From Rhodanobacteraceae bacterium (lineage in GTDB: Bacteria > Pseudomonadota > Gammaproteobacteria > Xanthomonadales > Rhodanobacteraceae), in contig JAICHS010000003.1 of NCBI GenBank assembly GCA_025924775.1, positions 1-33,714 on the forward strand: DNA of 33,714 nucleotides. Direction: 5' to 3'. Position numbers and translations under genes: made by a program. Positions 3,486 through 27,391 of the stretch are shown piece after piece. Within the stretch, counting starts at the first letter, position 1. Each line of letters opens with the position of its first letter. The notes beneath the pieces are model-generated. The model was not told the DNA's origin and did not search any database. It saw only the letters and a list, made by a program, of their open reading frames with translations.

Positions 3486-3632
3486 TGCGGTCGTCCATGA
3501 TTGCGGCTTTGCCGAAGTGTGGGTGCAATGGGTGGCTTTGTGGGTCACCAGCACCGGAGCGCCCATCCATGGGCTGACTTTCCACAAAAGCCGCTCCGGG
3601 TGGGGGCGCCGACTCGCCGGACGCGTTGCCAC
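3486..3632 (+). repeat. Dispersed intergenic repeat, copy C
   Basis: TGCGGTCGTCCATGATTGCGGCTTTG ... CCATCCATGGGCTGACTTTCCACAAAAGCCGCTCC ... CGCCGACTCGCCGGACGCGTTGCCAC. Confidence 0.75.
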
Positions 3633-15036: not shown

Positions 15037-15150
15037 TGCAATCGTCCCTGATGGCCGCGTCACTGCGCCCGAGGCCGCATCGAGAGCTAGCCTCGTGCTG
15101 CACCAGAACGGCCGTCCATGGCCTGACTTCTCACCAAAGCTGCTTCGCTC
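15037..15150 (+). repeat. Dispersed intergenic repeat, copy D
   Basis: TGCAATCGTCCCTGATGGCCGCGTC ... GCCGTCCATGGCCTGACTTCTCACCAAAGCTGCTTCGCTC. Confidence 0.7.
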
Positions 15151-17124: not shown

Positions 17125-17255
17125 TGCGATCGATCCCTGATCGCCGCTTCGCTGGAGCCCATCGCAACTTGGTGGCCCTGAAGCCGCCAGCTTCAGAACG
17201 TCCTTCCATGGGCTGACTGTTCACAACAGCGGCTGCGACCGACTCACGTTGCCAC
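17125..17255 (+). repeat. Dispersed intergenic repeat, copy E
   Basis: TGCGATCGATCCCTGATCGCCGCTTCGCTGG ... CTGAAGC-cgcca-GCTTCAG ... CTTCCATGGGCTGACTGTTCACAACAGCGGCTGCG ... CGACTCACGTTGCCACG. Confidence 0.75.
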
Positions 17256-17806: not shown

Positions 17807-17862
17807 GGGTTTGTCCTCGCGAAAGCTGGCGATTTTACGCGAGTCACCCAAAATCGGGGTCA

Positions 17863-17945
17863 AAAACCGGGGTCAGAGTCAATTTTGTTTGAGGTAGTCA
17901 TGTTGCAGAAAGACTTTGCCCGATATTGACTCTGACCCCGGTTTT
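17863..17945. repeat. Palindromic REP/MITE-like element, intergenic copy
   Basis: AAAACCGGGGTCAGAGTCAAT (17863-17883) and ATTGACTCTGACCCCGGTTTT (17925-17945) are perfect 21-bp reverse complements; 41-bp centre. Confidence 0.92.
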
Positions 17946-17953
17946 GACCGGTT

Positions 17954-20083
17954 TCACTGCAGCTTGTTCCACAGGAAATCGTAGGTCAGCGCGTGCATGG
18001 TCGCCGCCTGCGCATTGTCCGCGCCGGCGCCGTGGCCGCCTTCGGTGTTCTCGAAGAACCACACGTGCTTGTAGCCCATCGCTTCCATTTTCGCCGCCAT
18101 CTTGCGCGCCTGCACCGGGCCCACGCGGTCGTCGCTGGTGGTGGTGTGGAACAACACGTCCGGATAGTGCATACCAGCCCTGACGTTCTGGTACGGCGAG
18201 AAGGTCTTGATGAAGGCCCACTGCGCAGGATCGTCCGGATTGCCGTATTCGGCCATCCACGACGCACCCGCGGAAAGATGCGAGTAGCGCTGCATGTCGA
18301 GCAGCGGGACTTCGCAGGAAATCGCGCCGTAGAGCTGTGGATACTCGGTGAGCATGTTGCCCATCAGCAAGCCGCCGTTCGAGCCGCCTTCGGCGCCGAG
18401 GTGCGCGGGCGAGGTGACGCCGCGCTTGATCAGGTCCTCGGCGACCGCGGCAAAGTCCTGGTAGGCCTTCGGGCGGTTGGCTTTCAGCGCGGCCTGGTGC
18501 CACGCCGGGCCGTACTCGCCGCCGCCGCGGATGTTGGCGATCACGTACACGCCACCGCGCTGCAGCCAGGCACGGCCGATCGAGCCCGAGTAGTGCGGCA
18601 GCAGCGAAACCTCGAAGCCGCCATAGCCGTATTGGAGCGTGCGGTTCTTGCCGTCCAGCTTGATGTCCTTCGGTGCGATCTCGAAATACGGCACGCGGGT
18701 GCCATCCTTGCTGGTCACGAAATGCTGGCTGACCTCGAACTTCGAGGCATCGAAGAAGGCGGGTTCCTGCTTGAGCTTCTTCGCGGGTTCGCTGCCCAGC
18801 ACGCCGCGTTCCAGCGACGGCGGATCGAGGAAACCGGTAACCGTCAGCCAGTATTCGTCGGAGTGATCCGGGGCGGTATCGACCACCGCGATGGTGCTGA
18901 ACTTCGGCGCGCCTGGAACTGCTTCATGTGTCCACGCGCCGTTGCCGGAGGCGGGCGGCGTCAGCACGTCGAGGCGGCTCTTCACGTCGTCCAGCACGTC
19001 CAGGATCACGTGGTGCTGCGTCCACGAATACCCGGCCAGCGCGGTGTGCGCGTCGGGCGTGAACAGCGCGGTGAAATCGCGTTTGCCGGCCATGAAGTCG
19101 TCGAAGTGCATCGCGATCAGCGCGCCGGCGGGCCAGGTCTTGCCACCCACCGTCCACGGCGACTTCGTCTCAACCACCAGCCATTGGCGATGCACGTCAG
19201 CGTTGGCGTCCTCCGGCACGTCGATCTTCACCAGCTTGCCGTCCTTCAGCAGGTACTCGTCGCCATGGAAGAAGTCCTTCTGCACGTTGACGAAGTCGCG
19301 CTCGAAACCCTGGGTGCGGTCGTGGTAGGCGGCGATCGCCAAGTCATCGGATTTGCCTGCGTACACCAGCTTGGCAGACGCCAATGGCATGCCGCGCGTC
19401 CATTCCTTGACGATGCGCGGGTAGCTGGACTTGGTCATCGAACCCGGCCCGAAATCGGTGCCGACGTAAACGTGGTTGGCGTCGATCCAGCCGATCTCGG
19501 TCTTGGCGACCGGTACGAAGAAGCCGCCCTTCACGAATGACTTGGATGGCAGGTCGAACTCGCGTACTTCCACGGCGTCGCCGCCGTCCGGCGACAGCGA
19601 GACCAGGCAATGCGCGTAATCGGGCCTCATGCATTGCGCGCCCTTGAACACCCACTTCTTGCCTTCGGCCTGATTGAGCGCGTCGATGTCCAGCACCGTT
19701 TCCCACGCGGGGGCGGCTTTCTCGTACTCGACCAGCGTGGTGCGCCGCCAGATGCCGCGCGGGTGCGTCTTGTCCTGCCAGAAGTTGTAGAGGTAATCGC
19801 CCATCCGGCTGACGTAGGGAATGCGCGCCTCGGAATCGAGCACTTCCAGGATCTCGCCGCGGGTCTTGTCGAACTCCGGCGATGCCATGAAGGCTTTTTT
19901 CGTGATGGCGTTCTGCGCGTGCACCCAGGCCATCGACCTGGCGCCGTGGATGTTTTCCAGCCACAGGTAGGGATCGTCCGTGGCCGCGCGAGTCGCGGTA
20001 TCGCCGGTTGCTGCGGGGGAGGTTGCCATTGCCATGCCTGAAATTACCATGCCGGAAGCCAGCGCCAGCCAGATCGCTTCCAT
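17954..20083 (-). CDS. Prolyl oligopeptidase family serine peptidase (S9)
   Basis: TDDPYLWLENIHGARSMAWVHAQN...YGYGGFEVSLLPHYSGSIGRAWLQRGGVYVIANIRGGGEYGPAWHQAAL...GAEGGSNGGLLMGNMLTEYPQLYGA; N-terminal signal-like segment. Confidence 0.95.
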   Translation of the reverse strand: MEAIWLALASGMVISGMAMATSPAATGDTATRAATDDPYLWLENIHGARSMAWVHAQNAITKKAFMASPEFDKTRGEILEVLDSEARIPYVSRMGDYLYNFWQDKTHPRGIWRRTTLVEYEKAAPAWETVLDIDALNQAEGKKWVFKGAQCMRPDYAHCLVSLSPDGGDAVEVREFDLPSKSFVKGGFFVPVAKTEIGWIDANHVYVGTDFGPGSMTKSSYPRIVKEWTRGMPLASAKLVYAGKSDDLAIAAYHDRTQGFERDFVNVQKDFFHGDEYLLKDGKLVKIDVPEDANADVHRQWLVVETKSPWTVGGKTWPAGALIAMHFDDFMAGKRDFTALFTPDAHTALAGYSWTQHHVILDVLDDVKSRLDVLTPPASGNGAWTHEAVPGAPKFSTIAVVDTAPDHSDEYWLTVTGFLDPPSLERGVLGSEPAKKLKQEPAFFDASKFEVSQHFVTSKDGTRVPYFEIAPKDIKLDGKNRTLQYGYGGFEVSLLPHYSGSIGRAWLQRGGVYVIANIRGGGEYGPAWHQAALKANRPKAYQDFAAVAEDLIKRGVTSPAHLGAEGGSNGGLLMGNMLTEYPQLYGAISCEVPLLDMQRYSHLSAGASWMAEYGNPDDPAQWAFIKTFSPYQNVRAGMHYPDVLFHTTTSDDRVGPVQARKMAAKMEAMGYKHVWFFENTEGGHGAGADNAQAATMHALTYDFLWNKLQ

Positions 20084-25957: not shown

Positions 25958-27391
25958 ATGCGTATCCACATCCTTGGTATCTGCGGCACCTTCATGGGCG
26001 GCATCGCCGCGTTGGCGCGTGGGCTTGGCGTCGAGGTGGCAGGCTCGGATGCCAACGTGTACCCGCCGATGAGCGACCAGCTGCGCGCGCTGGGGATCGC
26101 GCTTGAGGAAGGCTGGTCGGCCGAACACCTGAAGCCTGCGCCGGACCTGGTGGTCGTGGGCAACGCGCTGTCGCGCGGCAATCCGTCGGTCGAGTACCTG
26201 CTCAACCAGGGCCTGCCGTACGTTTCCGGCCCGCAGTGGCTGGGCGAGCACGTGCTGCGCGGTCGCGAGGTGTTGGCCGTCGCCGGTACCCACGGCAAGA
26301 CCACCACGTCCAGCCTGCTGGCGCACCTGCTGGACAACGCGGGCCTTGCGCCGGGCTTCCTGATCGGGGGCGTGCCCGAAAACTTCGGAGTGTCGGCAAG
26401 ATGGGGTCAGAGTGCCTTTTCCCGTGCGCCTCAAGCTGAACATCGTCGGTCGGTTGGGAAAGGGCACTCTGACCCCGGTTTCCCGGCCGCGCCATTTGTG
26501 ATTGAAGCGGACGAATACGACACCGCGTTCTTCGACAAGCGCTCGAAGTTCGTGCACTACCGGCCGCGCATCGCGATCCTCAACAACCTCGAATACGACC
26601 ACGCCGACATCTTCCCGGATGTCGCGGCGATCCAGCGCCAGTTCCACCACCTCGTGCGGACGGTGCCCGGCAACGGGCGGCTGATCGTCAATGCCGAGGA
26701 TGCACGGCTCGCGGAGGTGTTGGCGATGGGCTGCTGGACGCCGGTGGAAACGTTTGGCATCGACGCGGGCGACTGGCGCGCGCGCCTGTTGGAGCCCGAC
26801 GGGGCGGCGTTTGCCGTCACCCACCAGGGCCGGCCACTGGGCGACGTGCACTGGAACCTGCTGGGCCGCCACAACGTGATGAACGCGGTGGCGGCGCTGG
26901 CCGCCGCGCACGCCGCCGGCGTGGATCCGGCATCGCTGCTGCCGGCCTTTGCGACGTTCGCCAGCGTCAAGCGCAGGCTGGAGGCGCTTGGCGAAGTGGG
27001 CGGCGTGCGGGTTTACGACGACTTTGCGCACCACCCGACCGCGATTGCCACCACGTTGGCGGGCCTGCGCGCGAAGGTGGGCCATGCGCGGATACTGGTC
27101 GCGCTGGAGCCGCGCTCGAACTCGATGAAGGCGGGCGTGTACGTGGACGCGCTGGCGCCCGCGTTCGCCGACGCCGATCGCGTCGTGCTGTTGCAGCGCC
27201 CCGAGCTGCGCTGGGACGAACGCCGCGTGACGGCCGCGCTCGGCGGTCGCGGGGTGAGCGTGCCGAGCGTCGCGGAATTGCTGGACGTGCTGGCGCGCGA
27301 CGCGCGCGCGGGCGACCACGTGGTGTTCATGTCCAACGGCGGTTTCGAAGATGCACCCCGGCGGTTTCTCGACGCATTGCGCCACGGTTAG
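25958..27391 (+). CDS. mpl: UDP-N-acetylmuramate:L-alanyl-gamma-D-glutamyl-meso-diaminopimelate ligase, carrying an in-frame repeat insertion
   Basis: MRIHILGICGTFMGGIAALARGLGVEVAGSDANVYPPMS...VLAVAGTHGKTTTSSLLAHLL...FVIEADEYDTAFFDKRSKFVHYRPRIAILNNLEYDHADIF; closely follows E. coli Mpl except for ~25 extra residues before FVIEADEYD. Confidence 0.97.
   Translation: MRIHILGICGTFMGGIAALARGLGVEVAGSDANVYPPMSDQLRALGIALEEGWSAEHLKPAPDLVVVGNALSRGNPSVEYLLNQGLPYVSGPQWLGEHVLRGREVLAVAGTHGKTTTSSLLAHLLDNAGLAPGFLIGGVPENFGVSARWGQSAFSRAPQAEHRRSVGKGHSDPGFPAAPFVIEADEYDTAFFDKRSKFVHYRPRIAILNNLEYDHADIFPDVAAIQRQFHHLVRTVPGNGRLIVNAEDARLAEVLAMGCWTPVETFGIDAGDWRARLLEPDGAAFAVTHQGRPLGDVHWNLLGRHNVMNAVAALAAAHAAGVDPASLLPAFATFASVKRRLEALGEVGGVRVYDDFAHHPTAIATTLAGLRAKVGHARILVALEPRSNSMKAGVYVDALAPAFADADRVVLLQRPELRWDERRVTAALGGRGVSVPSVAELLDVLARDARAGDHVVFMSNGGFEDAPRRFLDALRHG
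26403..26476. repeat. Palindromic REP/MITE-like element, copy inside mpl coding sequence
   Basis: GGGGTCAGAGTGCCTTTTCCC (26403-26423) versus GGGAAAGGGCACTCTGACCCC (26456-26476): 21-bp inverted repeat with one mismatch; right edge CCCCGGTTT matches the 17945 copy. Confidence 0.92.

Follow-up and report, generated by a model that had tools for sequence, protein, structure and literature searches.

The mpl gene of a Rhodanobacteraceae bacterium contains a palindrome that is read through in frame, which raises the question of what this sequence is, how it came to lie inside a conserved enzyme and why it is kept there. We analysed a 33,714-nucleotide stretch (contig JAICHS010000003.1, positions 1 to 33,714; hereafter the window) of this genome, G000, whose relevant features are as follows.

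25958..27391, forward strand: mpl, murein tripeptide ligase, 477 aa, frame unbroken across the insert (TIGR01081, fold match 3hn7)
26381..26401, forward strand: NFGVSAR, conserved left edge of the mpl loop (alignment)
26402..26494, forward strand: mpl loop, 31 residues (W149-P179) replacing the usual 6, with residues 153-175 predicted to be disordered
26403..26476, forward strand: 74-bp hairpin element of the GGGGTCAGAGT..ACTCTGACCCC family in mpl (pairing, folding, BLAST, copy comparison)
26403..26423, forward strand: left arm of the mpl hairpin, GGGGTCAGAGTGCCTTTTCCC (arm pairing)
26456..26476, forward strand: right arm of the mpl hairpin, GGGAAAGGGCACTCTGACCCC (arm pairing)
26477..26481, forward strand: GGTTT, remnant of an outer arm (AAAACC / GGTTTT), the left outer arm being absent in mpl (flanks of other copies)
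26495..26521, forward strand: FVIEADEYD, conserved right edge of the mpl loop (alignment)
17869..17939, no strand assigned: second window copy of the GGGGTCAGAGT-family element, outside any long open frame and nested in further GGGGTCA / TGACC arms

The product matches the NCBIfam model TIGR01081 for mpl with 621 bits (cut-off 389), with fold matches to 3hn7 and 1p3d. Its span from SAR to FVIEADEYD comprises 31 residues as against the usual 6, thus 25 extra, and the frame is open throughout the insert with a net change of 75 nt; of 80 gammaproteobacterial mpl loci, 78 had a readable loop, which was short in 70. The initial annotation of this stretch, made from the letters alone, had described a palindrome read through directly before FVIEADEYD and some 25 surplus residues, and both points are borne out here. 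It had also placed the palindrome in an 'essential-core' region: the insert does lie in the conserved core of the protein, but E. coli can do without Mpl, which is a recycling ligase, so the term can mean no more than that.

The arms of the mpl hairpin pair with one wobble and enclose 32 nt. Compared with shuffled sequence, folding gave z-scores of -6.4 as RNA and -5.4 as DNA, with 0 of 200 shuffles equalling it; together with the dispersed copies described below, these scores rule out a chance palindrome. When known structured RNAs were considered, the sole match was a sub-threshold miRNA (25 bits, where the gathering score is 69), of a kind that any long hairpin may give, and a search for a plasmid relative of the window found none. 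An assembly artefact of the fragmented genome was rejected because isolates (Rhodanobacter thiooxydans LCS2, L168; Rhodanobacter sp. Root480, L172) and single-contig genomes (G003, G014) also have inserts at this site.

Dispersed copies of the palindrome were indeed found in its own genome, where 78 BLAST and pattern matches correspond to some 22 hairpins, each 69-75 nt long. Their outer 11 bases (GGGGTCAGAGT ends) are nearly constant, while arm positions 12-15 and 19-20 vary yet remain complementary, revealing covariation across the hairpins; the centres resemble one another no more than shuffled sequences do. Most copies have extra outer arms, AAAACC/GGTTTT, of which the mpl copy retains only GGTTT on the right side. 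Copies lying in frame inside genes were identified in mpl, nadE, ctaA, icmF and a MutT-ThiE ORF; a hydropathy test of frame choice across the six in-gene copies gave P of about 0.07, which is suggestive only. A literature search with the arm sequence found no paper on the GGGGTCAGAGT element. The icmF-like ORF (697 aa, minus strand; L009, G000:C355) holds two separate in-frame copies, one of which sits between the B12-binding and GTPase regions, and further copies lie immediately upstream or at the beginning of conserved genes that resemble recQ (L007), pyrB (L013), recR (L023) and ribD (L026). In the mpl gene of G223 (L079) and at window positions 17840-17960, hairpins are enclosed by additional arms with the same sequence (GGGGTCAAAATCGGGGTCAGAG..), giving the impression of palindromes that grow symmetrically or land inside one another.

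The genus offers a candidate for the enzyme that moves such hairpins, since a PF01797 (Y1_Tnp) match is present in 7 of its 16 genomes. In G008 (L136) and G009 (L144), the transposase gene lies between inverted GGGGTCAGAGT and ACTCTGACCCC on both sides. The other transposase of G009 (L137), whose product matches a REP-associated tyrosine transposase model below the curated cut-off, is preceded by GGGGTCAGGTTCACTTTTCC, the arm of that genome's own mpl insert, with only this flank readable as the contig ends before the far side; the flanks of the G004 transposase (L138) are GGGGACGGAGG, the class present in mpl of G002. A search of the genome that contains the window, about 96% complete, gave no Y1_Tnp gene, which leaves present-day mobility in that genome without support. 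The terminal inverted repeat (TIR) motif of TIRYT genes is GGGGWSAS according to Di Nocera et al. (2013, PMC3733652); GGGGTCAG fits it, while GGGGACGG of the G004 class fits incompletely.

As GGGGTCAGAGT ends flank Y1_Tnp genes in two congeners, the window element belongs with the RAYT/TIRYT-associated hairpin repeats, as a REPIN-like TIR repeat, and not with the Rickettsia palindromic elements (RPEs). Like the 'TIRtrons' of PMC3733652, it has inverted ends flanking an HUH tyrosine transposase, an end motif that GGGGTCAG satisfies and dispersed, often dimeric copies (about 22 hairpins in G000, with 13 perfect GGGGTCAGAGT hairpins in G008 and 9 in G009); the intragenic cases of that paper are, however, GTAG and CGTC REPs, and Rhodanobacteraceae seem not to be treated there. 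With REPINs (Bertels and Rainey 2011, PMC3116915) it shares an inverted doublet forming one hairpin, compensatory arm changes, a linked transposase and a spacer that is variable in sequence but near-constant in length (71 bp in REPINs, 69-75 in the window element). It differs in that REPINs are mostly extragenic, whereas several copies of this family lie inside genes, and in that its single arm is not a GTAG-tagged palindrome, GGGGTCAGAGTGCNNTTTCG having no GTAG tag and not being self-complementary by inspection. The initial annotation had likened the insert to RPEs, here compared by description, and the likeness is one of behaviour: both are palindromic DNA lying in frame in conserved genes (here mpl, nadE, ctaA, icmF and the MutT-ThiE ORF), RPEs being read as 20-50 extra residues. 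The kinship does not hold, as the window element has random centres in place of a conserved sequence coding a conserved peptide, different ends, an association with a tyrosine transposase and a free-living gammaproteobacterial host, and here one site is common to unrelated element families.

That common site emerged when the mpl loop was read in relatives. Among the 15 congeneric genomes with mpl, 14 have a filled loop and only G005 an empty one. The inserts comprise GGGGTCAGAGT (G000, G008), GGGGTCAGGTT (G009, G015), GGGGACGGAGG (G002) and GGGACTGGGGATTGGGG (G011) classes, with CCCTC..CCCTCTCCC-type composites in the remaining filled congeners; other Rhodanobacteraceae genera contain the same classes plus one more, CACCGTCGG, so that at least five unrelated repeat classes occupy the loop. 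In all, 89 mpl genes were read, of which 63 are filled and 26 empty, a sample skewed towards filled loops because nearly all full-length matches but only some two-piece ones were read. A tree from which the loop was excluded requires at least 34 changes of its content and at least 11 switches between the filled and empty states, and sister pairs with good support have different loop content. The picture of a single landing, unique to this lineage, must thus be abandoned, as same-site inserts are common across Rhodanobacteraceae; nor are the extra residues conserved, since relatives have different palindromes or none.

Every one of the 63 inserts is open in the mpl frame, whereas stops occur in the +1 frame of 33 and the +2 frame of 23, and no internal stops were present in the mpl matches listed by the family-wide search. 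Counted to the EADEYD motif, inserts range from 17 to 75 residues. Mean folding z-scores were -7.7 for the GGGGTCAG class and between -2.5 and -5.6 for the remaining named classes; the unclassified inserts folded no better than chance. Neither a target duplication nor a within-species pair of empty and filled alleles was seen at the insert sites. In another family of the order (G048, L052), the mpl match spans 1455 nt, longer than usual, and may contain an insert outside Rhodanobacteraceae.

The inserts are linked to the repeats of the genome that carries them. Of 16 congeners, 4 have perfect GGGGTCAGAGT hairpins outside mpl, and these are the very genomes with a GGGGTCAG element in mpl, a coincidence with a chance of 1 in 1365 were the two independent. 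The GGGGTCAGGTT class of G009 is present in six perfect copies, including one in mpl and one in ctaA. Within 400 kb sampled from G003, the classes seen in its mpl and nadE loops turned up at 6 and 7 places, respectively, and neither the G000 nor the G002 element was encountered; this sample gave no additional in-gene copy of either class that was convincing, the four open frames detected looking antisense or spurious. The GGGGACGGAGG pattern used in these searches missed the G002 mpl copy, whose spacer exceeds the allowed gap.

Two other enzyme genes behave in the same manner. The nadE loop contains GGGGTCAGAGT in G000, G008 and G009, a GGGACCAGGGAC-like element in G013 and G002 and GGGAATGGGG in G003 and G014, and has no evident element in G001, G004 and G005. 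Part of the spacer is common to the G000 and G009 nadE inserts, which indicates that insertions can persist through speciation. The nadE loop of G006 (L158) holds ATCAGCGTCTGACCC, which looks like a decayed GGGGTCAG element, although the genome yielded no intact copy. In ctaA, the loop is filled by GGGGTCAGAGT (G000, and G008 by coordinates), GGGGTCAGGTT (G009, G015), CCCTCTCCC (G002, G007, G012) or GAGGGGCGAGGGG (G011), and is empty in G001, G006, G010 and G014. All three in-gene sites tested (mpl, nadE and ctaA), which were picked because G000 is filled there and are biased to that extent, have therefore been re-used by unrelated elements. Such re-use at 3 of 3 sites would be improbable were tolerant sites numerous, so these are probably few and close to saturated.

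Where the insert lies in the protein was mapped on an AlphaFold2 model of the window Mpl (46 sequences), which has a mean pLDDT of 88.6. Residues 153-175, corresponding to the insert, are the sole segment with pLDDT below 50, the rest of the protein being at about 90. The original proposal is upheld to the extent that a dispersed palindromic element sits in a loop adjoining EADEYD and was kept as coding sequence. In the solved Mpl structures from Psychrobacter (3hn7) and Neisseria (3eag), the corresponding loop is moderately extended as well, suggesting that tolerance of length is general here, whereas the palindromes are not. The net change of 75 nt and the absence of a stop in frame suggest that the insert is translated as a disordered loop, which would leave the enzyme working.

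Taken together, this analysis is best explained, with a probability of roughly three in four, by hairpin elements that insert widely and by selection that keeps in-frame copies in a few tolerant, nearly saturated loops. The window feature would then be a non-autonomous hairpin repeat with inverted GGGGTCAGAGT ends and a disposable centre, presumably mobilised as single-stranded DNA by a tyrosine transposase of RAYT/TIRYT type, of which one copy would have entered mpl between SAR and FVIEADEYD. Such hairpins, along with unrelated palindromic repeats, would insert widely in Rhodanobacteraceae genomes, and purifying selection would clear most in-gene insertions while sparing in-frame ones in mpl, nadE, ctaA and a few more loops; because so few loops are spared, these would be filled repeatedly by the active element of each lineage. 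Part of the 34 content changes could reflect exchange of the loop by recombination between relatives.

The main rival to tolerance is that the loop is a target at the DNA level, with new elements directed to, or converting, a palindrome already there. Near-saturated occupancy in the genus (14/15), the replacement of unrelated classes by one another between sisters, the nested hairpins (L079 and window 17840-17960) and REP dimers inside other palindromes, published in PMC3733652, would all suit such targeting. We nevertheless consider it unlikely, as the classes have no obvious common sequence, three different genes behave alike, insert-free loops of unrelated sequence coexist and the longer Mpl loop of Psychrobacter and Neisseria points to general tolerance. 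A more far-reaching reading, also unlikely, is that the loops of mpl, nadE and ctaA serve as genuine exchange sites, into which unrelated palindromes preferentially insert or where they replace the resident one; if true, core enzymes of this family would have loop sequence supplied, and regularly swapped, by mobile DNA.

Tolerance was also weighed against retention for a function, be it a role of the translated loop or an mRNA hairpin at which ribosomes slow down as they begin the central domain. In its favour, most inserts fold strongly and inserts are common, but with 26 of the 89 mpl genes empty, a congener's among them, with sequence, length and class varying freely and with unclassified inserts folding at chance level, this is improbable. 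Least credible of all is the absence of the insert from the protein through translational bypass or splicing. Hairpin inserts in genes do resemble the bypassed elements of yeast mitochondria; a skipped insert, however, need not keep the frame or avoid stops, yet 63 of 63 do, a conservation of frame that makes skipping unlikely, and neither a splicing domain nor a conserved junction was seen.

In-frame palindromes of this kind are less rare outside Rickettsiales than first supposed: PMC3733652 reports in-frame REPs from Opitutus, Thauera, Stenotrophomonas, Xanthomonas and others, adding 20-30 residues and known in several phyla. It also describes the closest parallel, intragenic REPs in recB of Xanthomonas campestris and X. 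oryzae, where different REPs occupy about the same site; that case concerns two species and one gene, as against dozens of genomes, at least five classes and three genes here. Scattered in-frame REPs are thus published, whereas turnover at one site among many families on such a scale is unreported in the literature searched, and no report of one loop filled by many unrelated classes across a family was found in the searchable literature, outside which most subscription journals lie. A single enzyme loop in one family thereby records dozens of content changes among unrelated mobile hairpins, with further genes alike, and amounts to an experiment of nature, replicated across the phylogeny, that can show which protein loops accommodate 20-60 arbitrary residues. 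With it one can ask directly if mobile hairpins are guided to such loops or only sifted by selection.

The window also contains a second dispersed repeat of ~51 nt (..CCATGGGCTGACTTTCCACAAAAGC..) at 3548-3598, 15097-15147 and 17187-17237, the copies being 76-78% alike. Two pairs of direct repeats, 416-444 / 525-553 and 1684-1711 / 1793-1820, each have a start-to-start spacing of exactly 109 nt.
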